Assembly: GCA_002869895.2 (NCBI GenBank)
Contig: NEWP02000001.1
Span: forward strand, 53,792 to 109,512
Origin: Nitrospira sp. CG24E
GTDB taxonomy: Bacteria > Nitrospirota > Nitrospiria > Nitrospirales > Nitrospiraceae
Length of the DNA stretch: 55,721 bases
Direction: 5' to 3'
Under the pieces are notes generated by a model, which saw nothing but the letters and a program-made list of their open reading frames with translations, was not told where the DNA came from and ran no database searches. Within the stretch, counting starts at the first letter, position 1; every line of letters starts with the position of its first letter. Positions 9,832-36,202 of the stretch are shown piece by piece. The translations under genes and the position numbers were made by a program.

Positions 9832-10488
9832 ATGCATCGAGCCGATGAACATATGGTTGGCAGCGGTCGTGTCACGGAGGCGCGGGCGCGGCATATTCCT
9901 GTGATCGGGGTCGGCGGGCCGGTGGGGTCTGGAAAGACCGCGCTGGTCGAAGCGCTCTGCCTTCGCCTGCGCGAGCACGTGAGTTTGGCGGTGGTCACGA
10001 ACGACATCTTTACCAAAGAGGATGCCGAGTTTCTCACGCGCCGGGGTGCGCTGCCTCAAGACCGCATTCTGGGCGTCGAGACAGGAGGCTGCCCCCATAC
10101 AGCAATTCGTGAAGATGCTTCGCACAATCAGGAGGCCTTGGACGATTTGCTCAAACGCCATCCCGATGTCGAGCTGATGTTTGTCGAGAGCGGCGGAGAC
10201 AATCTGGCCGCGACATTCAGTCCTGAACTGGCGGATAAAGTGATCTACGTCATTGACGTCGCTGCCGGCGATAAGATTCCGCGCAAAGGCGGTCCTGGCA
10301 TTACCCGCTCCGATCTACTCGTCATCAACAAGATCGATCTGGCGCCGCATGTCGGAGCCGATGTATCTGTGATGGATCGGGACAGTAAGCGCATGAGGGG
10401 CGACCTACCCTTTCTCTTTACCAATCTTAAGACAGGACAGGGGCTCGACCAGGTGGTGGTTTGGGTGGAGCAGCTCTTGTCTCGTTGA
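9832..10488 (+). CDS. ureG: Urease accessory GTPase UreG
   Basis: 218 residues. P-loop [11 protein letters not shown] at about 26-36, the metal-binding CPH-type site ([13 protein letters not shown]), [18 protein letters not shown] and the guanine-recognition NKIDLA are all present. It couples GTP hydrolysis to nickel delivery. No histidine-rich tail is visible and no ureE is found in the window, so nickel would have to come from another donor such as HypA/HypB or from UreG itself. The 90-nt gap before it holds a family F-like repeat (GAGATACGCTTCACG). Confidence 0.97.
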
Positions 10489-10562
10489 TTTGGTTTTTTT
10501 GGTTTGTTTTGTTTATTTGGTTAAACCAGACCAACCAAACAAACCAAATGAACCAAACAAAC
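10489..10562. repeat. Family C repeat (TTTGTTTGGTTT...AACCAAACAAACC)
   Basis: T/G-rich left arm and A/C-rich right arm form a hairpin. The right arm ends in AACCAAATGAACCAAAC and supplies the ATG and the first codons (MNQT) of ureD. The same family is at 11532-11612, 26503-26665 and 31995-32122. Confidence 0.85.
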
Positions 10563-11513: not shown

Positions 11514-11531
11514 CCGGCGCGACGCCGGCTG

Positions 11532-11612
11532 GTTTCTCTTGTTTATTTGGTTTGTTTGGTTTATCTGGTTGAACGAGACTTGCCCGATGAACCAGACAAG
11601 TCTGGCTTGTTC
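11532..11612. repeat. Family C repeat after ureD
   Basis: TTGTTTATTTGGTTTGTTTGG arm followed by a diverged right arm (GATGAACCAGACAAGTC). It closes the urease operon. No terminator with a U-run was seen here. Confidence 0.7.
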
Positions 11613-20324: not shown

Positions 20325-21698
20325 ATGAAACCTATGCTATCGGCTATGAGTCACATGAAAAAGATTTTGCCGGTCTTCCTGATTTGCCTTGTCGTCTTGG
20401 CAGGATGGACGGCGCTCAATGTACAAGACGTCGCTGCACAGGAGGCAGCAGCTGAGGCTCCAGCCGCGCTGAAGGCCGATACGGGCGATACGGCCTGGAT
20501 TATCGTCTCTTCGGCGCTGGTCATGCTGATGACCCTCCCTGGTTTGGCGCTCTTCTACGGAGGACTCACCAGGCAAAAAAATATCCTGAGCACACTCTTG
20601 CATAGTTTTATCTGTCTTTGCCTGGGCAGTATGGCTTGGGTGGTGTTCGGGTACAGTCTGTCCTTCGGCCCGGATGTGGGAGGAGTGATTGGAAATCTCG
20701 ATTGGTTCATGTTGAAGGGGGTAGGCGCCGATCCCAGTCCGACCTACGGCACCACTATTCCACATGAACTCTTCATGGTGTTCCAGCTCATGTTCGCCGC
20801 GATCACCCCGGCTCTGATCACGGGAGCCCTTGCGGAACGTATCAGATTTTCCTCAATGCTGTGGTTTCTCGGCATCTGGTCCGTGGTGGTGTACTACCCT
20901 GTGGCCCATTGGGTCTGGGGCGGTGGATGGCTGGGAGCGATGGGCGCCCTAGACTTTGCCGGAGGCACGGTCGTGCACGTGACCTGCGGCATGGCAGCGC
21001 TGGTTGCCTGCATTATGCTCGGCAAACGTAAAGGCTATCCGAATACCCCCATGCCTCCCCATAACCTTCCACTCACGGTACTGGGGGCTGGGCTCCTCTG
21101 GTTCGGCTGGTTCGGGTTCAACGCCGGCAGCTCGCTGGGCGCCAATGGCCAGGCGATCGGCGCGTTCGTCGCGACCCATATCGCCGCCTCGACTGCGACG
21201 GTGTTGTGGATGCTGATCGAATGGGCCCATCGCGGCAAGCCCACGGCGCTCGGTGTGGCCACCGGAACGATTGCGGGGCTGGCCACCATTACCCCTGTGG
21301 CCGGGTTTGTCTCCCTGTTTCCGGCGTTTATCGTCGGTGCTGCCGGCGCGATTATCTGTTATATCTGCGTGGTCTTCGTGAAGAGCGCGCTTGGTTACGA
21401 TGATGCGCTCGATGTCGTGGGGGTCCACGGTGTCGGTGGAGCAACCGGCTGTATCCTCGGAGGGTTATTCAATTCAAAGGTGATGGGTTCCCCGGCCGAC
21501 GGGCTGCTCTACGGGGGCGGCTTCTCTCTCATGGGATCTCAGATCGTCATGGTCGCCGCTGTGGGGGCCTATACTGCGATCGCCACCTGGATCATCCTCA
21601 AGATCATCGATGTGATCATCGGCATTCGCGTGACGCAAGATGAAGAACAAGAAGGCTTGGATGTGAGCCAGCACGGTGAGAAAGCCTATCACGTGTAA
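20325..21698 (+). CDS. amtB: Ammonium transporter
   Basis: 457 residues. A signal peptide (to about DVAAQ, residue 38) and 11 transmembrane helices are typical of Amt. Conserved elements are GLALFYGGLTRQKN (start of helix 1-2), FQLMFAAITPALITGALAER, HCW-type VYYPVAHWVWGGGW, the pore histidine in VVHVTCGMAALV and the second in VVGVHGVGGATG. It imports ammonium and is normally gated by GlnK-type PII, whose gene follows 101 nt downstream. Start 20325 has GGGGA about 9 nt upstream; internal ATG at 20346 is an alternative. Confidence 0.97.
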   Translation: MKPMLSAMSHMKKILPVFLICLVVLAGWTALNVQDVAAQEAAAEAPAALKADTGDTAWIIVSSALVMLMTLPGLALFYGGLTRQKNILSTLLHSFICLCLGSMAWVVFGYSLSFGPDVGGVIGNLDWFMLKGVGADPSPTYGTTIPHELFMVFQLMFAAITPALITGALAERIRFSSMLWFLGIWSVVVYYPVAHWVWGGGWLGAMGALDFAGGTVVHVTCGMAALVACIMLGKRKGYPNTPMPPHNLPLTVLGAGLLWFGWFGFNAGSSLGANGQAIGAFVATHIAASTATVLWMLIEWAHRGKPTALGVATGTIAGLATITPVAGFVSLFPAFIVGAAGAIICYICVVFVKSALGYDDALDVVGVHGVGGATGCILGGLFNSKVMGSPADGLLYGGGFSLMGSQIVMVAAVGAYTAIATWIILKIIDVIIGIRVTQDEEQEGLDVSQHGEKAYHV

Positions 21699-21724: not shown

Positions 21725-22138
<414 letters not shown>

Positions 22139-22183: not shown

Positions 22184-24985
22184 GTGCCTATCCTTGATTT
22201 TGCGCAGGCGAGAGGGGATGCCCGCGTTGTGACGACGGCATCGGACAACGGGTTTCAGTCTGGGCTTTTGCGCGGGGTGGAGGTTGCACCGGCCTCCACC
22301 CTGGCAGGGCATCGGCTCGCCCTCCGGCAGAAATTGATGGAGGGGGTCCCGGCGGCTATGGCGATGGCGGCCTTGACGGAGTTCGTGGACGGGCTGATCA
22401 TCGGTAAATACAAGCATGCCATGCGGCAAGCTGGTGAGCCGTCGCAGGTTGCAGGGGACCAGTATTGCTGTCTGGTGGCGCTGGGAGGGTACGGCCATCG
22501 TGAGTTAGCTCCCTATTCAGACATCGACATCATGTTTCTGTTCCGCGAGGAGGCTGGGGAAGCAGCGCCGGCTCTGTTCCGTGAAGTGCTCCACTATCTC
22601 TGGGATCTCGGGCTGCAGGTCGGCCACAGTATGAGGACGATGCAGGATTGTGTCGAGCTGGCCGCGAAGGACCTGACGATTCGCACCGCCATGATGTCCT
22701 CCAGATTTTTGACCGGCAGCCCCTACCTGTTCCAGGAATTCAGCCGCCGATATGCGCAGGAGGTGGTCGGTCAGGGGATCGAGAGCTTTATCGAACAAAA
22801 AGTAGAGGAGCGCCGGCGTGAATATGTCAAGTTCGGACAGACAGTCTATCTTTTGGAGCCGAACGTCAAGAAGAGCAAAGGAGGGGTGCGGGACTTCCAT
22901 CTGCTCCGGTGGGCTGGCATGGCCAGATTCAATGCCACGTCGTTACAAGATTTGGCGGATCGCGGGTTCCTCTCAAGGCCGGACTTGCACTCCTTGACGG
23001 AGGCCCGTGATTTTCTGTGGAGTGTGCGGGCCTTTCTGCATCTTCAAGCAGGGAGGGCGGAGGAAATTTTGTCGTTCGACGAGCAGGTCCGTCTGGCGTC
23101 ATTGTATGGATTCCATGATCAGCCTAATCTTCTGGGGGTGGAGCAGTTCATGCAGCGGTACTACCGGCTGACGACGGGACTCCATGAAACCATGCTCCGG
23201 TGTGTGGACCGATGTCTGGCGCCCCCTGAAAAGCGCCGTCCGATCGGTTCCTCGCCCGCTGCTACGGTGGACGGCTATTTCGTGGTGGATGGCCAGGAAT
23301 TGACCGTTCCCTCCGAGCTGCGGGTTCGTGTTCTGGATGGGCCTGGCCTGCTGCTTCAGCTGTTCGAGACGGCAAGGTCCCGCAGCCTCAAGATCGACAG
23401 CGACCTATTGGACGAGATCCGCAGCCAGATGGATAGCATGTCGAGCGAGGCCTTTCGGACCCCTGAGGTCAGCCGGATGTTTCTGAAGATTCTTGCAGGG
23501 TCCGGGGGGGTAGCAGGCACGCTTGAAGCGATGCATCGTGTCCACCTGCTGGAAAAGATTATCCCGACCTTTGCGACCCTTCGCGGGCTGATGCAGTTCA
23601 ATCAATATCACAAGTATACGGTGGACGAACATTCCATTCTGGCTGTGGCGAAGGCGGAGGCATTTGCCCTGGAACCAGGCGTTCTTGGGAAGGTCTGCCA
23701 GGAAATGAAGCGGAAGGATCTGTTGCATCTGGCGATTCTGTTGCACGATTTGGGAAAGGGGCGGAAGGAAGATCACTGCGAAGTGGGCAAGGCGATTGCG
23801 GAAGAGACGGCGGCGCGGCTGGACTGTGACGAGCAAGAAACGAGGACACTGGCCTTTCTAGTGCACAAACATCTGCTTATGGCCCACACGGCTTTTCGAC
23901 GCGATCCTTACGATCAGAAGGTGATTGGATCCTTTGCCAAGGCCATGGGGACGCCGGATGTGCTTCGTAAGATGCTGGTCCTGACGGCAGCCGATATTGC
24001 GGCTGTGGGACCAGGGGTCTTGACCAAATGGAAAGAATCCCTGCTCGTCGAACTCTATCTGCGCACCCTCCCGGTCGTATCGGGTGAGAGGGATGAGGTT
24101 GCCGCGCCTGAGCGATTCAAGCAATTGATCGGCGATGTGGCGCGCGAGTTCCCGGATGCCGCGTCGGTAGGGCTGGATTGGATCGAGTCGCAACTGGGCC
24201 AGTTTCCTTTGCGCTATCTCTATGGGGTTCATCCGAAGCAGATCGCGACCCATCTGGTGGCGATCAAAAGGCTGCAGGCAGGCGATGTGCTGGTCGAGAA
24301 TCGCTTCAATGAGGAACTGGGTATCTGCGAATATACGGTGATTACCCACGATACCCTTACCAGAGGCATCGTATCGAAAATTGCCGGTGTGATGGCATCC
24401 CAGGGACTGGAGATTGTGGATGCTCAGATCACGACCCGGGCGGACGGAGTCGTCGTCAATACGTTCCAGGCAGCCGATCCGGACTTTGTCGGTGCTCCCC
24501 CACCTGAGCGCGGGGCCGACATCGCCGAGATGATTATCCAAGTACTGAAGGGGAAAGAAGCAGTCGAGCGGCTGATGAGCCGCTACACCAGACTGTCTCC
24601 TGCAAGCCGGCTGCCGGCCCCTCGTCAGGCGACCGAGGTGCAGATCGATAACGAAACCTGCGACCGGTCCACCATTGTCGATGTGTTTGCTGAAGATACG
24701 CAAGGACTGTTGTATGCTATTACTCACAGTATCTTTAACCTCGGTCTGTCGGTCCAAGCGGCTCGGATTTCGACCAGGCTGGATGACGACGTACAGCAGT
24801 CTCTGCGTACCGGCGGCAGACATCAAGTAGCGGACGTGTTCTATGTGACCGACCAGCAGGGAGCCAAGCTTGAGGATCCTGCTCGATTAGAGGCCATCCG
24901 GGCGACCGTCAAGCAGGACATCGATCTATTCATGGATCGGCAGGTTGGCACAGCGGACGGCATCGTGATAGGGTCAGCATCATAA
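22184..24985 (+). CDS. glnD: PII uridylyltransferase/uridylyl-removing enzyme
   Basis: 933 residues. Domains in order: nucleotidyltransferase with GGYGHRELAPYSDIDIMF (about 101-118; catalytic D113 and D115), a GlnD helical region, HD phosphohydrolase (LLHDLGKGRKEDHCEVG near residue 520) and two C-terminal ACT domains (about 745-810 and 850-915). All four are expected for GlnD, so both uridylylation and deuridylylation of PII should work, controlled by glutamine binding at the ACT domains. Start GTG 22184 is the longest frame but has no clear ribosome site; GTG 22229 with GAGAGGGG upstream is an alternative. It lies in the order amtB-glnK-glnD-glnA. Confidence 0.94.
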   Translation: MPILDFAQARGDARVVTTASDNGFQSGLLRGVEVAPASTLAGHRLALRQKLMEGVPAAMAMAALTEFVDGLIIGKYKHAMRQAGEPSQVAGDQYCCLVALGGYGHRELAPYSDIDIMFLFREEAGEAAPALFREVLHYLWDLGLQVGHSMRTMQDCVELAAKDLTIRTAMMSSRFLTGSPYLFQEFSRRYAQEVVGQGIESFIEQKVEERRREYVKFGQTVYLLEPNVKKSKGGVRDFHLLRWAGMARFNATSLQDLADRGFLSRPDLHSLTEARDFLWSVRAFLHLQAGRAEEILSFDEQVRLASLYGFHDQPNLLGVEQFMQRYYRLTTGLHETMLRCVDRCLAPPEKRRPIGSSPAATVDGYFVVDGQELTVPSELRVRVLDGPGLLLQLFETARSRSLKIDSDLLDEIRSQMDSMSSEAFRTPEVSRMFLKILAGSGGVAGTLEAMHRVHLLEKIIPTFATLRGLMQFNQYHKYTVDEHSILAVAKAEAFALEPGVLGKVCQEMKRKDLLHLAILLHDLGKGRKEDHCEVGKAIAEETAARLDCDEQETRTLAFLVHKHLLMAHTAFRRDPYDQKVIGSFAKAMGTPDVLRKMLVLTAADIAAVGPGVLTKWKESLLVELYLRTLPVVSGERDEVAAPERFKQLIGDVAREFPDAASVGLDWIESQLGQFPLRYLYGVHPKQIATHLVAIKRLQAGDVLVENRFNEELGICEYTVITHDTLTRGIVSKIAGVMASQGLEIVDAQITTRADGVVVNTFQAADPDFVGAPPPERGADIAEMIIQVLKGKEAVERLMSRYTRLSPASRLPAPRQATEVQIDNETCDRSTIVDVFAEDTQGLLYAITHSIFNLGLSVQAARISTRLDDDVQQSLRTGGRHQVADVFYVTDQQGAKLEDPARLEAIRATVKQDIDLFMDRQVGTADGIVIGSAS

Positions 24986-25014
24986 ATCGTAATTGATAAG
25001 GAGGCTTGGTTGGA

Positions 25015-26424
25015 ATGAATCCCCGCGAGGTATCGGAGTTTGCAAAGAAGCACAAAGTCGAAGTCGTGGACTTGAAGTTCGTGGATCTGCTCGGCACGTG
25101 GCAGCACTTTTCTATTCCAGTCGAAGAGCTGACCGAAGGGCTGTTCAAGGACGGATCCGGGTTGGACGGTTCGTCGATCCGGGGTTGGAAAGCGATCAAC
25201 GACAGCGACCTGCTGATGGTGCCGGATCCGAACACAGCCTCGCTGGATCCGTTCTGCGCCGTTCCGACGCTGAGCCTCATCGGCAATGTGCTCGATCCGA
25301 TTACCCGCGAGCCCTACGATCGCGATCCGCGGTTCGTCGCGCAGAAGGCGGAGAAATATCTCCAGAGCACGAAGATCGGCGATACCTCCTACTGGGGGCC
25401 GGAGGCGGAATTCTTCATCTTCGATCAGGTCCGCTACGATCAGACAGGCCACAGCGGCTTCTACCATATCGATTCCGAAGAAGGCGCCTGGAATATCGGG
25501 CAGGAAGGCCATAACTTGGGCGGGAAGATCCGTCACAAGGAAGGTTATTTCCCCGTCCCGCCGACCGATACGCAACAGGACATCCGCAGTGAGATGGTCT
25601 TGGAGATGCAGAAGGCCGGGATCTACATTGAGAAGCATCACCACGAGACTGCGACCGCGGGCCAGGCCGAAATCGACATGCGGTTCGATTCGCTGGTCAA
25701 GACGGCGGACAAATTGATGATGTACAAGTACATCGTGAAGAACGTGGCCCGCCGGCATGGTAAAACCGTGACCTTCATGCCCAAGCCGATCTTCGGGGAC
25801 AACGGCACCGGCATGCATACGCATCAGAGCATCTGGAAGGATGGGAAGCCCCTGTTCGCCGGGAAAGAATATGCCGGTATCTCGCAACTCTGTCTCTACT
25901 ACATCGGAGGCATCCTGAAACACGCCCCGGCCCTGGCGGCCTTTACGAATCCGACGACCAATTCCTACAAGCGATTGACTCCCGGCTTCGAGGCGCCGGT
26001 TCTACTGGCCTATTCCAGCCGGAACCGATCGGCGGGCGTCAGGATTCCCATGTATTCACCGAGCCCAAAAGCCAAGCGAATCGAAGTGCGTTTCCCCGAC
26101 CCGACTGCGAATCCGTACTTGGCCTTTCCGGCCATGCTGATGGCGGGGCTGGACGGGATCGAGAACAAGATCAATCCCGGTGAACCGGCTGAAAAGGATC
26201 TGTACGATCTCGAGCCGGAGGAAGCAGCGAAGATTCGCACGATGCCAGGCAGTCTGGATGAAGCCCTACGCAGCCTCGAACAGGACCATCAGTTTCTGCT
26301 CAAGGGAGGGGTCTTCAGCAAGGACCTGATCGAGGCCTGGATCAACTACAAACGCACCAGGGAAGTCGATCCCATGCGGTTGCGGCCGCACCCCTACGAG
26401 TATGTGCTGTATTATGATGCGTAG
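25015..26424 (+). CDS. glnA: Glutamine synthetase, type I
   Basis: 469 residues. ATG 25015 is chosen because AAGGAGG lies 10 nt upstream, and it puts the adenylylation tyrosine of KDLYDLEP at residue 397, the number used for E. coli GlnA. Signature sequences [35 protein letters not shown] and [17 protein letters not shown] are present. It makes glutamine from glutamate, ammonium and ATP. The adenylylation site fits the two GlnE-like proteins 6-10 kb downstream. It begins 29 nt after glnD and ends at a good intrinsic terminator. Confidence 0.98.
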
Positions 26425-26466: not shown

Positions 26467-26502
26467 CGTCCGTCTCTCGAACTGAGGGGCGGACGTTTTT
26501 TT
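26467..26502 (+). terminator. Intrinsic terminator of glnA
   Basis: CGTCCG (26467-26472) pairs with CGGACG (26490-26495), with further paired bases inside (CTC/GAG), followed by seven T residues (26496-26502). The stem is preceded by one arm of a family A repeat. Confidence 0.85.
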
Positions 26503-26665
26503 GTTTGGCTCAACTGGTTTGTTTGGTTCATCTGGTTTGTTTTGTTTGGTTAGTTGATTTGGTTCAAAAACGAGAGAAGCCATTCGCACCAAATAAACAA
26601 AATAAACCAAACAAGCCAAATCAACCAGAGAGACCAAATGAACCAAACAGACCAAACAACTGCTT
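26503..26665. repeat. Family C repeat before the APC permease
   Basis: GGTTTGTTTGGTTCATCTGG left arm, central AAAACGAGAGAAGCCATTCG and right arm AACAAAATAAACCAAACAAG. The centre is shared, inverted, with the copy at 31995-32122. The right arm contains the permease start codon. Confidence 0.85.
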
Positions 26666-31994: not shown

Positions 31995-32122
31995 TTCTTG
32001 TTTATTTGGTTTATTTAGTTTGTCTTGTTCATTTGGTTTGTTTGGTTTATTTCGTTTATTTGGTGCGCAGGACCGCTCTCGTTTTTGAACCAAACCAACC
32101 AAATGAACCAACCAAACCAGTT
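31995..32122. repeat. Family C repeat between the two minus-strand genes
   Basis: TGTTTATTTGGTTTATTTAG, GGACCGCTCTCGTTTTTGAA and CCAAACCAACCAAATGAAC. It is the inverted form of the 26503-26665 element, including the GAGAG-containing centre. It lies between the GlnE-like gene and the guanidinase-like gene. Confidence 0.85.
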
Positions 32123-34394
32123 ACAGACCGCCGAACCGCTGTGAGAAAAAATCTTGGGATGCCTGCATGTGATGAGCGATGTCGGCCTGTAAATGGCGCG
32201 CGCAGGCCCGCCAGTCGTCCGTCGTATAACCGACACGGCGGGCGAGGCTGACAAACTCTTCAGAGTCGGGCGGGGGGAGGACCAGATCCTTGGTGTTCCC
32301 ACGGACCATGCGCAATCCGTCAACCAGGATACGGATGAAGATGTAGGCTTTCCGGAGACCCTCTCCATCGGTTTGCGAGACCAACCCCTCTTTGACCAGC
32401 GCGGCGAGGGCCTGCAGTGTATTCGGCGTGCGCAGGTTCGGGTGGTCGTGCCCATGCATCACTTGCAGATACTGCACGGCATATTCGATGTCGATCAATC
32501 CTCCGACGCCATACTTCACGTTGATCTGCCCCGGCTTGACGAATTGTTTGTGCTGCTGTCTTCGGAGTTCTACCGCTGCGGGAATGTCCCAGGGATCCTT
32601 GGCATAGACGAAAGAGTCCCGGTGGGCTTCCATCTGCCGGCCCAATGAGGCGTCGCCGACAATATGCCGGAGCTTGATGAGGGCTTGCCGCTCGAATGGC
32701 GCGGCGGATCCGGTCGGACTGCAGTAGTCGCGGCCAGCCTCGAACACGTTGGCCAGCGAGCTCTTGCCTCCATGCGGGCGCAGCCGCACGTCGACACGAA
32801 AGATGCCTTCCTGTTTGGCTTCGATCCATTGCAGCAGCTCTTGTACGAGCCGTTCGAAGTATTCCGAGTTCTCCAGTTTCGTCTTGCCGCTCGTAGCGCC
32901 TTCCCCTCCATAGACGAACAAGAGTTCGATGTCCGACGCATAGCCAAGTTCACGGCCGCCGAACTTTCCAAGGCCCAGCACCGCAAAGGGACAGGGCTTT
33001 CCGTTCTGGAGCAGGGGGCGGCCATAGAGCCGGCTCAATTTCGTCTGGCAATCGATGACGCTGCGGGCCATGATGACTTCGGCGAGTTGCGTGAGGGCCA
33101 GGGAGAAGTTGGTCAGGCTGGGCGACACGTCGACGATATGTTTCATGTCGATCCGGAACAGCTCATTGTCTTTGAACCGATTCAAGGCGTCTTTTCGCGC
33201 TGCGTCCGTTTTGGCTCGCGCCACTGCGCGGTCGAGCTCTTTCCTGAGGGTCTCCTGCGGTTTGATCAGAGGCGCATCCCGGTATTCCGTGAGCAGGGGA
33301 AGGAGATTGTTATGTTGGCGTCGTAAAAAATCTTCCCACAAGAAATCGCTGGCGCCGAGCAGCCGGGCAAGCAAGGGGAATGTTTTTTTGTCGCTGATAA
33401 AATCGAGCGCCTTATTTTTTCCCTTCTTGCCCGTTTCCGCCACGATAAGATCGAGAAAGTGGTCGAACGATGCCAGCGCCTTGGCCGGGTCGGATGCCCA
33501 GGTCAAGGCATGGGTGAATTGTTTGATGAGCACGGTGGTCAGCCGCAGTTGCTGTTGATCGGCGGGATCGAGCAGTTTCTGCCCATCGCGATTTCTCACA
33601 AAGAACCGGTCGTGTAGTTTGGATCCATCGCATTCGATCTGGGCCTTGGTGATGTAGATATTGCGCATGGCCAAGGCATTCGCCAGCGCGTAGAGGAAGG
33701 CCGGCGTATCGTCCGATGTGATGTCCATAATCGTATCGCTCGGCGACTGGCTATTGTCGAAGGTAATTTTTACTGTATCCAGCAGGCCGGTGAAGGCGCT
33801 TCGATGTTTGTCCAGTCGTTCGACGAGCCGGCGGTTGACGTACTGGCGGGCCTCGTCGAAACGACCGGCGTCCAGCAGTTGCACGATCTCTGTGACCGTC
33901 TGTCGGAGGGCATTGTGTTGTGAAGCGGGAAAGCCTGTGCGTTCCAGGGGGTGCACTAAAAACACATCGACGATTTTCTTGCGGCTCAGGCCGGGCCGGC
34001 CTTTAGGCCGGCGGATCGTAGCGGGAGTTTCCCTGCGCAACGGTGGAGAGGGTGCGGCTTCTACGAAGGTATAGACCCGCCCTTCTTCGATATTGAGTCC
34101 GAAGGCCGAGAGGACGCCGCAAATGGCGGCGAATTCCGAGAAGTAATCGTAGGCGACGATGCTGATCTCATATCGCCCTTCTTGCTTGTCGAGCACCGAT
34201 AATTCGCAGGGGTGGTCCGGTGTGAGGCGGCTGGCAAGCTGAATATGCTGTGCGACTGTGTCCGGTTGGAATCGTTCGAAGTACTCCGGATCCATCCGGG
34301 AGGCGAAGTCCTTGAGCACCTCATCATCGACATCCGGACAAAGGGAGGTGAGAGTCTTGGTGATCGACTCGCGTGATCCAAGCCCGTCCGTCAT
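32121..34394 (-). CDS. GlnE-like adenylyltransferase with N-terminal ACT domains
   Basis: 757 residues from ATG 34394 (MTDGLGSRESITK). The N-terminal half carries two predicted ACT domains (about 85-130, YEISIVAYDYFSEFAAIC; and about 210-290, ITSDDTPAFLYALANAL) like those of GlnD. The C-terminal half is a GlnE nucleotidyltransferase (GKFGGRELGYASDIE near residue 475, then FRVDVRLRPHGGK) and ends with GlnE helical sequence. The motif form GRELGYASD matches the C-terminal, adenylylating domain of E. coli GlnE. It would adenylylate GlnA Tyr397, perhaps under direct control of glutamine through the ACT domains. Full-length GlnE has about 946 residues and two such catalytic domains. The ORF can be extended upstream but would overlap the divergent gene. 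Confidence 0.88.
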   Translation of the reverse strand: MTDGLGSRESITKTLTSLCPDVDDEVLKDFASRMDPEYFERFQPDTVAQHIQLASRLTPDHPCELSVLDKQEGRYEISIVAYDYFSEFAAICGVLSAFGLNIEEGRVYTFVEAAPSPPLRRETPATIRRPKGRPGLSRKKIVDVFLVHPLERTGFPASQHNALRQTVTEIVQLLDAGRFDEARQYVNRRLVERLDKHRSAFTGLLDTVKITFDNSQSPSDTIMDITSDDTPAFLYALANALAMRNIYITKAQIECDGSKLHDRFFVRNRDGQKLLDPADQQQLRLTTVLIKQFTHALTWASDPAKALASFDHFLDLIVAETGKKGKNKALDFISDKKTFPLLARLLGASDFLWEDFLRRQHNNLLPLLTEYRDAPLIKPQETLRKELDRAVARAKTDAARKDALNRFKDNELFRIDMKHIVDVSPSLTNFSLALTQLAEVIMARSVIDCQTKLSRLYGRPLLQNGKPCPFAVLGLGKFGGRELGYASDIELLFVYGGEGATSGKTKLENSEYFERLVQELLQWIEAKQEGIFRVDVRLRPHGGKSSLANVFEAGRDYCSPTGSAAPFERQALIKLRHIVGDASLGRQMEAHRDSFVYAKDPWDIPAAVELRRQQHKQFVKPGQINVKYGVGGLIDIEYAVQYLQVMHGHDHPNLRTPNTLQALAALVKEGLVSQTDGEGLRKAYIFIRILVDGLRMVRGNTKDLVLPPPDSEEFVSLARRVGYTTDDWRACARHLQADIAHHMQASQDFFSQRFGGL

Positions 34395-34460
34395 GTTCGG
34401 AGTATACCCGAACTGGGGTTCATTGTGCGAGCGCCGATCTATCAGTATAATGCCTGCCCA
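34394..34460. promoter_or_regulatory. Divergent overlapping promoters, leaderless start sites
   Basis: Plus strand: TTGTGC (34423-34428), 17-nt spacer, TATAAT (34446-34451), then ATG at 34460, so the transcript should begin at or next to the start codon. Minus strand: TATACT ends six bases before the ATG at 34394, with a weak CGCACA -35 box overlapping the plus -35. No ribosome sites precede either ATG. This suggests leaderless mRNAs. Confidence 0.55.
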
Positions 34461-36202
34461 TGACAGACCATCCCAAGAAGGAAGTCCCGCGCTATTGTGC
34501 CCTTCCAAAACTCGAATGGGCGTCTCGACCGGACCCAACCCCCGTTCTCTTAGCGTCGGGATTGGGGCCGGAACAGCTTGCCACAATTCTTCAGCCCTAT
34601 GGACTCCGCCGGATCCAGGATGCCTATACCAACCTGCAGTCGATGGCGGGGGATACAGACCAGCGACGCCAGTTGGCGGAAATTCTTCCGTCGTTGCTTG
34701 AGATCATCGGTCGGACCGCTGATCCGGACCAGGCCTTAAATCACTGGGAGCGTTGGCTTGCGAGCGGAGTCAGCCGGTCGGCTGTATTGGAATATCTGCG
34801 CAGCGCTCCCCGCATGTTGGATCTGGTGTGCAGGATCTTCGGAAATAGCGATTCGCTGGCCTTCACTCTCGTCCGCGATCCCCTGCTTCTCTACTGGCTG
34901 GCCGAGCAGAATGTATTGTCCACCGCGCCGACCAGGGCAGGGATGGAACGGACGATCCGGAAGAGTTTGGCGGCTGTCAGTGCTACCGAGCTGAGGCTGG
35001 ATCTGCTCAGGCGATTTCGACATCGAGAGATGCTGCGTATCGGCGTGCGGGATCTCGTGCGGTTAGCCGACGTGGTAGAAACCACCGCGTCTCTTTCGGA
35101 TCTGGCGTCGGTCCTTATCGATGCAGCCTATCGCATTGTGGATGCAGATTTACGAGCTCGCCACGGCATTCCCATGCACCAGAATCGAACCGGGCAGTGG
35201 GTGGAGACCGGTTTCACGGTCATTGCGATGGGGAAACTGGGCGGACATGAACTCAATTACAGCTCGGATGTCGACGTGTTGTATGTTTGTGAGTCCCATG
35301 AAGGGACAACCAGGCCGACTGCCTCCGGCCGCACGAAGGCCAAGGGCCCTCAGCAGCGCAAACTGTCCAATGAAGAATACTTTGAAATTCTTGCGCGGGA
35401 ACTCACAAAGGCGCTGACGGAACAGACTCATGAGGGCTATGTCTATCGCGTGGATCTCCGCTTGCGCGCAGAAGGCACGGTCGGACAGCTCGCTCGGTCG
35501 CTCGATGACTACGCTAAGTACTATCGGACGAGAGGACAGGTCTGGGAGAGGTTGGCTTTGCTCAAGGCCTGGCCCGTTGCCGGGTCGAAGGAAGTCGGGA
35601 AATCGTTCATCAAGATGGTGCGGCCATTTGTGTTGGCGCCGGCCTCAAAAGAGTTGAATGCAGAGCAGGGGCTTGCGATCGTGGAGGAGGTCCGATCGGT
35701 CAAGGAGCGAATCGATGCGAAGATGGCGGAGCGAGGGCATGAGCAACGCAACGTAAAGCTGGGTGTCGGTGGAATCAGGGAAATCGAATTTCTCGTCCAG
35801 ACCATCCAGGTGCTGGCCGGCCGGCGGTTGCCGGGGATTCTTGGCCGGGGAACCATCGGTTCATTGGCGCGGCTTCAGAAGGCCGGTATTTTATCGGGAA
35901 AACACCAGACTGCTTTGACACGCGCCTATCAATTTCTCCGTGACGTGGAGCACAAACTCCAGATGGTGCATGATCTGCAGACCCATGCGCTTCCGGATCA
36001 ACAGAAGGAGTTGGAGCGTTGCGCCATTCGCATGGGCTATGACAGAGCTGATCGGCCCATCGCGCTCAAACAATTTCAAGCTGATCTTGCCGTTCATACG
36101 ACTATCGTGCATGACATCTTTCGGTCGTTCTTCGACAGTCCAAACACGTCGGCGATCCTCAAGAAAACGTTCCGGCTCATCGGACTTGAGCAGGCAAAGT
36201 AG
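34460..36202 (+). CDS. GlnE-like protein, single catalytic domain (N-terminal-half type)
   Basis: 580 residues. An N-terminal helical region is followed by the nucleotidyltransferase motif GMGKLGGHELNYSSDVDV (near 256-273), YRVDLRLRAEGTVGQLARS and VKLGVGGIREIEFLVQ, then a C-terminal helical domain (GLU-type REIEFLVQTIQVL, FLRDVEHKLQMV). The form GELNFSSD-like is that of the N-terminal, adenylyl-removing half of E. coli GlnE. It would remove AMP from GlnA Tyr397. Together with the divergent 32121-34394 gene it appears to form a split GlnE. Start ATG 34460 has no leader. It is followed by a short gap and a DUF1272 gene. Confidence 0.88.
   Translation: MTDHPKKEVPRYCALPKLEWASRPDPTPVLLASGLGPEQLATILQPYGLRRIQDAYTNLQSMAGDTDQRRQLAEILPSLLEIIGRTADPDQALNHWERWLASGVSRSAVLEYLRSAPRMLDLVCRIFGNSDSLAFTLVRDPLLLYWLAEQNVLSTAPTRAGMERTIRKSLAAVSATELRLDLLRRFRHREMLRIGVRDLVRLADVVETTASLSDLASVLIDAAYRIVDADLRARHGIPMHQNRTGQWVETGFTVIAMGKLGGHELNYSSDVDVLYVCESHEGTTRPTASGRTKAKGPQQRKLSNEEYFEILARELTKALTEQTHEGYVYRVDLRLRAEGTVGQLARSLDDYAKYYRTRGQVWERLALLKAWPVAGSKEVGKSFIKMVRPFVLAPASKELNAEQGLAIVEEVRSVKERIDAKMAERGHEQRNVKLGVGGIREIEFLVQTIQVLAGRRLPGILGRGTIGSLARLQKAGILSGKHQTALTRAYQFLRDVEHKLQMVHDLQTHALPDQQKELERCAIRMGYDRADRPIALKQFQADLAVHTTIVHDIFRSFFDSPNTSAILKKTFRLIGLEQAK

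Follow-up and report, generated by a model that had tools for sequence, protein, structure and literature searches.

Can the two opposing activities of GlnE on glutamine synthetase (GS) be encoded by separate genes, and could the adenylylating one sense glutamine through ACT domains of its own? The question is raised by a pair of neighbouring genes in Nitrospira sp. CG24E, which we analysed within a window, the whole 55,721-nucleotide stretch of contig NEWP02000001.1 that was under study.

Two divergent genes each encode a single GlnE-type unit

The minus-strand gene (32121-34394) encodes a 757-aa protein, here called ACT-GlnE, with a pair of ACT domains, a C-type GlnE nucleotidyltransferase (NTase) domain and PF08335, and the plus-strand gene (34460-36202) encodes a 580-aa protein that is a single N-type (adenylyl-removing type) GlnE unit. 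The ATG start codons at 34394(-) and 34460(+) are separated by a 65-bp gap (34395-34459), and no sigma-70 consensus was found in 34200-34600 around it. Open reading frames, strands, lengths and motifs agreed with the sequence-only reading, which had described two divergent neighbours with one GlnE motif each. The only domain matches of the plus gene were PF03710 (208 bits, residues 123-384) and PF08335 (97 bits, residues 414-558), and its NTase motif is GKLGGHELNYSSDVD. The minus gene matched PF03710 (145 bits, residues 342-589) and PF08335 (57 bits, residues 611-750); its NTase motif, GKFGGRELGYASDIE, is of the D-x-E type, which the sequence-only reading had not pointed out, and its catalytic acids are D488, E490 and D535. 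Against the equivalog models of bifunctional GlnE (NF008292, NF010706 and NF010707) the best scores were 198 for the minus gene and 334 for the plus gene versus a cut-off of 487, each protein having one NTase + PF08335 unit and not the two per chain of bifunctional GlnE. The genome (98% complete) contained no full-length GlnE that would undo the split; the third PF03710 match is GlnD, and there were no others. A broken GlnE or an assembly artefact was ruled out, because neither frame is interrupted and the pair is found again throughout the class.

Compared with E. coli GlnE (1v4a, 3k7d), each window protein carries a homologous NTase + PF08335 unit, and both N-type and C-type halves and the GlnA target tyrosine are present. 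The differences are that E. coli has one chain where the window has two separate genes, that the window proteins are without the central linker region, and that the C-type unit here has an ACT pair and a D-x-E instead of a D-x-D motif.

The plus gene groups with N halves and the minus gene with C halves

In E. coli GlnE, GS is deadenylylated by the N-terminal domain and adenylylated by the C-terminal domain (PMC12409994). An AlphaFold2 model of the 757-aa protein was built on an alignment of 37 ACT-GlnE proteins (pLDDT 85). Residues 297-755 of this model matched the E. coli N half (1v4a) with Z 40.6, and the model matched the C half (3k7d) with Z 38.7. Pairwise scores to the E. coli structures do not separate the adenylyl-removing from the adenylylating type for the minus gene, and the assignment was made by trees and signature residues. 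In a tree of 105 NTase + PF08335 units, ordinary N halves, the N-like parts of fused proteins and the short genes of Nitrospiria grouped together (98), and the ACT-linked units of all phyla formed a second group with support of 100 and a long branch. When a quick-method tree was rooted with GlnD as outgroup, the ordinary C halves and the ACT class made one clade (97). Three trees ruled out that both genes derive from the same GlnE half.

The signature residues pointed the same way. At the positions of E. coli N169, S171, R324 and Q385 the short genes have the equivalent residue and the ACT units do not, the plus gene carries the tested N-half signature (ELNxSSDxD, GGIRE, Gln385), and the equivalent of C-half R828 is present in all ACT units. 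These one-sided signatures were used because the strictly class-specific alignment columns, 5 in number, were too few alone; other signature columns, outside the active-site positions, were mixed. By clade and active-site signature, the plus gene thus belongs with the N (deadenylylating) halves, as had been proposed, and the minus gene falls in the C-half (adenylylating) clade when the tree is GlnD-rooted.

For the minus gene, the proposed equation with the adenylylating half holds for the rooted tree and the R828 equivalent, but does not extend to an identical active site. The motif is D-x-D in GlnD and in N and C halves alike, whereas it is D-x-E in every ACT-class unit inspected, and the minus gene lacks the D-x-D that defines the GlnE C half; the label "adenylylating" accordingly refers to phylogeny and signature residues. 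With D-x-E confined to the ACT class, the change appears to be derived and to define the class. The ACT alignments conserve D488, E490 and D535 throughout, and since active nucleotidyltransferases with D-x-E are known, ANT(4') among them, we read the site as active.

The N-terminal region of ACT-GlnE resembles the ACT region of GlnD

Two GlnD-like ACT domains had been proposed at the N-terminus of the minus-gene protein, and profiles and the predicted structure bear this out. Pfam PF24931 matched the second ACT domain (5e-8, residues 210-284), and the GlnD models NF003467 (residues 142-285, 8e-25) and TIGR01693 (model positions 614-843, residues 21-285, 2.5e-23) matched the stretch that in GlnD follows the HD domain, together with both ACT domains. 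The protein is not itself a GlnD by TIGR01693 (82 bits versus a cut-off of 519), and the profile search gave no HD match in it. In BLASTP against the GlnD of the window, residues 38-287 aligned with GlnD residues 678-909 (E 8e-9). In the AlphaFold2 model, the predicted ACT folds are present as a pair: by VIA-align, residues ~59-291 matched paired regulatory ACT domains, with Z 12.2 for aspartate kinase and Z 8.8-10.2 for threonine deaminase. The region is modelled with confidence as an ACT pair, which supports the ACT fold. In the first ACT domain the ligand loop (DYFSEF) does not have its usual Pro-Gly. ACT-GlnE shares with GlnD the post-HD segment and the two ACT domains, which are homologous to the N-terminal 290 residues of ACT-GlnE, but differs from it in having no HD domain and in placing after the ACT domains an NTase unit of the GlnE C-half type. 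In GlnD, the ACT domains are considered to be the part that senses glutamine (PMC3173338), and glutamine as the putative ligand of the ACT-GlnE pair is suggested by homology to the GlnD ACT domains only.

The pair is conserved in Nitrospiria and probably arose by replacement

ACT-GlnE was found in 55 of 68 Nitrospiria genomes. Among the matches listed for a sample of the phylum, Nitrospiria genomes have their best PF03710 match in a single-unit frame, and other Nitrospirota with GlnE mostly have one long frame of ~870-1310 aa, some shortened by contig ends. The pair runs across Nitrospiria, and an ordinary single GlnE occurs in most other Nitrospirota. An N-type gene and ACT-GlnE are neighbours in 81 loci (a few genomes counted twice), with 72 divergent, 7 convergent and 2 same-strand arrangements. 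Adjacent locus tags NITMOv2_1289 and NITMOv2_1290 of N. moscoviensis are named "GlnEB" in a 2018 metagenome study (PMC6131200), where GlnEB appears only among abundant annotated genes, with architecture, ACT domain and mechanism absent; two GlnE-named Nitrospira genes were therefore already visible in annotation, and they are possibly the same pair as that of the window. Fragments resembling the ACT-GlnE C-terminus (47-68% identical) lie within ~1.1 kb downstream of the intact gene at G077:C11:75899-76255, G088:C38:257830-258054 and G139:C1:1618123-1618278, as if from tandem duplication.

How the two genes came to be separate was addressed in a careful tree, in which ordinary GlnE from outside Nitrospirota was thinly sampled by E. 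coli and one uncultured bacterium. The short genes formed a group (99/98) with the Entotheonella partner and with the N halves of ordinary Nitrospirota GlnE, a group from which the N-like halves of fused proteins were excluded. The nearness of the short gene to ordinary Nitrospirota N halves suggests that the pair is not a simple fission and that an ACT-type protein, acting in trans, probably took the place of the ordinary C half. The earlier description of a GlnE split in two is therefore retained for the separate, class-wide N-type and C-type genes and revised for their origin. The simplest order of events would be the arrival of the ACT-type gene followed by loss of the C half from an ordinary GlnE; a Pelobacter genome with both forms (see below) indicates that the two can coexist. 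A simple split of a fused ACT-GlnE, with one of the parts then inverted, would account for a gene boundary that coincides with the N-half/ACT boundary of the fused forms and for genes that are still adjacent, but we consider it improbable in view of the 99/98 grouping that excludes the fused N-like halves. It concerns the origin only and would leave the proposed function unchanged.

ACT-GlnE forms a class across many phyla

A cross-phylum scan with one genome per species (84,980 species) gave counts that are lower bounds. Among the matches listed, the ACT class occurs at least in Entotheonella, Acidobacteria, Chloroflexi, Planctomycetes, Kuenenia, Verrucomicrobia, Fibrobacteres, Spirochaetes, Omnitrophota, Glassbacteria, Fraserbacteria and Deltaproteobacteria. 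The usual form outside Nitrospira is a fused [N-like]-[ACT-ACT]-[D-x-E unit] protein of ~1230 aa (at least ~25 loci), and a permuted [ACT-ACT-D-x-E unit]-[N-like] protein was found in at least 6 (L140, L153, L162, L163, L167, L173). The architecture is hence no peculiarity of Nitrospirota, a point that the first reading had missed. The fused protein of Anaerolinea thermolimosa (L141; at least ~24 similar loci) shares with the Nitrospira pair an N-type unit, the ACT pair and a D-x-E C-type unit of the same clade (100), but is one ~1230-aa chain whose N-like half is not closest to the Nitrospiria short gene. Stand-alone ACT-GlnE was found outside Nitrospira at least 8 times, with an adjoining N-type gene in 2 of these, Candidatus Entotheonella (L125) and a "Proteobacteria" MAG (L123), and with the N-type gene on another contig in 2 further ones. 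The two units of L125 and of L123 are closely related to their Nitrospiria counterparts, but the two genes lie on the same strand.

In the MAG Pelobacter sp. UBA6812 (G231; L152, L185) a stand-alone ACT-GlnE of 708 aa occurs alongside a complete ordinary GlnE with a frame of 1063 aa, and in three draft genomes (G226, G230, G233; L136, L147, L154) ACT-GlnE was found and no N-type unit was detected. Because of these cases some members may do something else; the three drafts possibly represent adenylylation without a deadenylylating partner, or incomplete assemblies. As a separate observation, one Omnitrophota MAG (G238) has very long stop-free frames of 5870 aa (C205) and 4245 aa (C27), with pieces of GlnD scattered in the former. 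A literature search of sources other than subscription journals returned no paper with both GlnE and "ACT domain", and the variant is conserved and apparently undescribed. The class across phyla is the more important finding, of which the Nitrospira split is a special case.

Nitrogen-control genes accompany the pair

At ~6-12 kb from the pair, the window encodes on the plus strand amtB for an ammonium transporter (20325-21698) and a PII protein of glnB/glnK type (21800-22138; T-loop RGAEYTTDF with a modifiable Tyr), both read from the sequence, glnD (22184-24985) with its own HD domain and C-terminal ACT region, and glnA (25006-26424), the presumed target, with the adenylylation-site tyrosine in the context DLYDLEPEE. 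With PII and GlnD encoded in the window, the suggestion that ACT-GlnE bypasses PII goes beyond the evidence for the source organism. Elsewhere, glnA directly precedes ACT-GlnE in three genomes from different phyla (G226, G227, G236), with both genes on one strand; the two converge in G229, and the short gene directly follows glnA in one Acidobacteria genome (G225). The GS tyrosine context was present in 14 of 17 genomes checked, including genomes without detectable GlnD, and the pattern had no match in the other 3. Of 16 ACT-GlnE genomes from outside Nitrospiria, mostly drafts, 6 had no detected GlnD. No GlnD over the cut-off was found in 81 sampled Chloroflexota genomes, among which ACT-GlnE at the threshold used was present only in Anaerolinea; Anaerolinea thus has the ACT form and no detected GlnD.

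Intergenic arrays of a 9-bp unit, AACCAAAYH, also occur in the window at 10484-10562, 11529-11570, 26500-26656 and 31996-32104 (17 matches versus 0.06 expected). Several are inverted pairs, minus-strand copies followed by plus-strand copies, that could form long hairpins, and more copies are present on many contigs of the genome, a result for which the reversed pattern did not serve as a fair control.

A candidate ACT-gated adenylyltransferase with a separate deadenylylase

The reading that we somewhat favour is that the 757-aa protein is an ACT-gated GS adenylyltransferase and the 580-aa protein a separate deadenylylase, because the two are placed with the C and N types by trees and signature residues; because the catalytic acids D, E and D are invariant in the ACT class; because the ACT pair aligns with the GlnD ACT region and is modelled as ACT folds; and because the genes are co-conserved, linked to glnA in several genomes, associated with a kept GS tyrosine and represented in genomes without detectable GlnD. 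When nitrogen is short, the 580-aa protein would remove AMP from GlnA, possibly under PII-UMP control. The ligand of the ACT pair would be an amino acid, in all likelihood the glutamine that GlnD senses, and at high glutamine the 757-aa protein would add AMP to the GlnA tyrosine; we infer the direction of each reaction and the sign of the glutamine effect. In most fused members the ACT pair sits between the halves, at the position of the central regulatory region of E. coli GlnE, and in Nitrospiria it is probable that the ACT protein took over the role of an ordinary C half that was lost. What speaks against this reading is the D-x-E motif, unlike every other GlnE half and GlnD, together with the first ACT domain's ligand loop without Pro-Gly and with the Pelobacter MAG and the three drafts, whose ACT-GlnE may have another role.

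That same change of one catalytic Asp to Glu in the whole ACT class, together with genes that remain neighbours through inversions, would suit a catalytically weak or inactive regulatory subunit that senses glutamine and docks on the 580-aa enzyme or GlnA, leaving catalysis, perhaps in both directions, to the N-type enzyme. However, the three acids and the surrounding NTase motifs are invariant, unlike those of pseudoenzymes, D-x-E is known from active nucleotidyltransferases, and ACT-GlnE occurs without any N-type unit in the three drafts; we judge a regulatory subunit the least likely account. Hardly more probable is that the ACT protein modifies another target, such as PII or a second GS-like protein, with GlnA adenylylation in Nitrospiria lost or done otherwise. 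A new specificity would be compatible with the D-x-E site and with the long branch on which the class lies, and in the Pelobacter MAG ACT-GlnE stands beside a complete ordinary GlnE, but the kept GS tyrosine, the position directly after glnA in three genomes of different phyla and the place of the ACT unit in fused proteins, in the C-half position beside an N half, point to GS. Broadened beyond Nitrospira, the ACT-gated adenylyltransferase and separate deadenylylase become the proposal that a second, cross-phylum class of GS adenylyltransferase reads glutamine directly through GlnD-type ACT domains, alongside GlnD in Nitrospiria or without it in Anaerolinea, and replaced the adenylylating half in Nitrospira; to this wider claim we give about equal weight for and against.

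Implications

GS adenylylation is controlled by a bicyclic cascade in which glutamine acts through GlnD, PII and GlnE on GS. This cascade could become shorter where the adenylyltransferase carries a GlnD-type ACT pair itself, and genomes without detectable GlnD offer natural test systems for this. Separate proteins of the adenylyl-removing and adenylylating types would allow each activity to be assayed with no truncated bifunctional enzyme. Major nitrite oxidisers and comammox bacteria belong to Nitrospira, and our literature search found no study of GS adenylylation in the genus. If the proposal is true, the "off" and "on" enzymes of GS in Nitrospira could be expressed and regulated independently.
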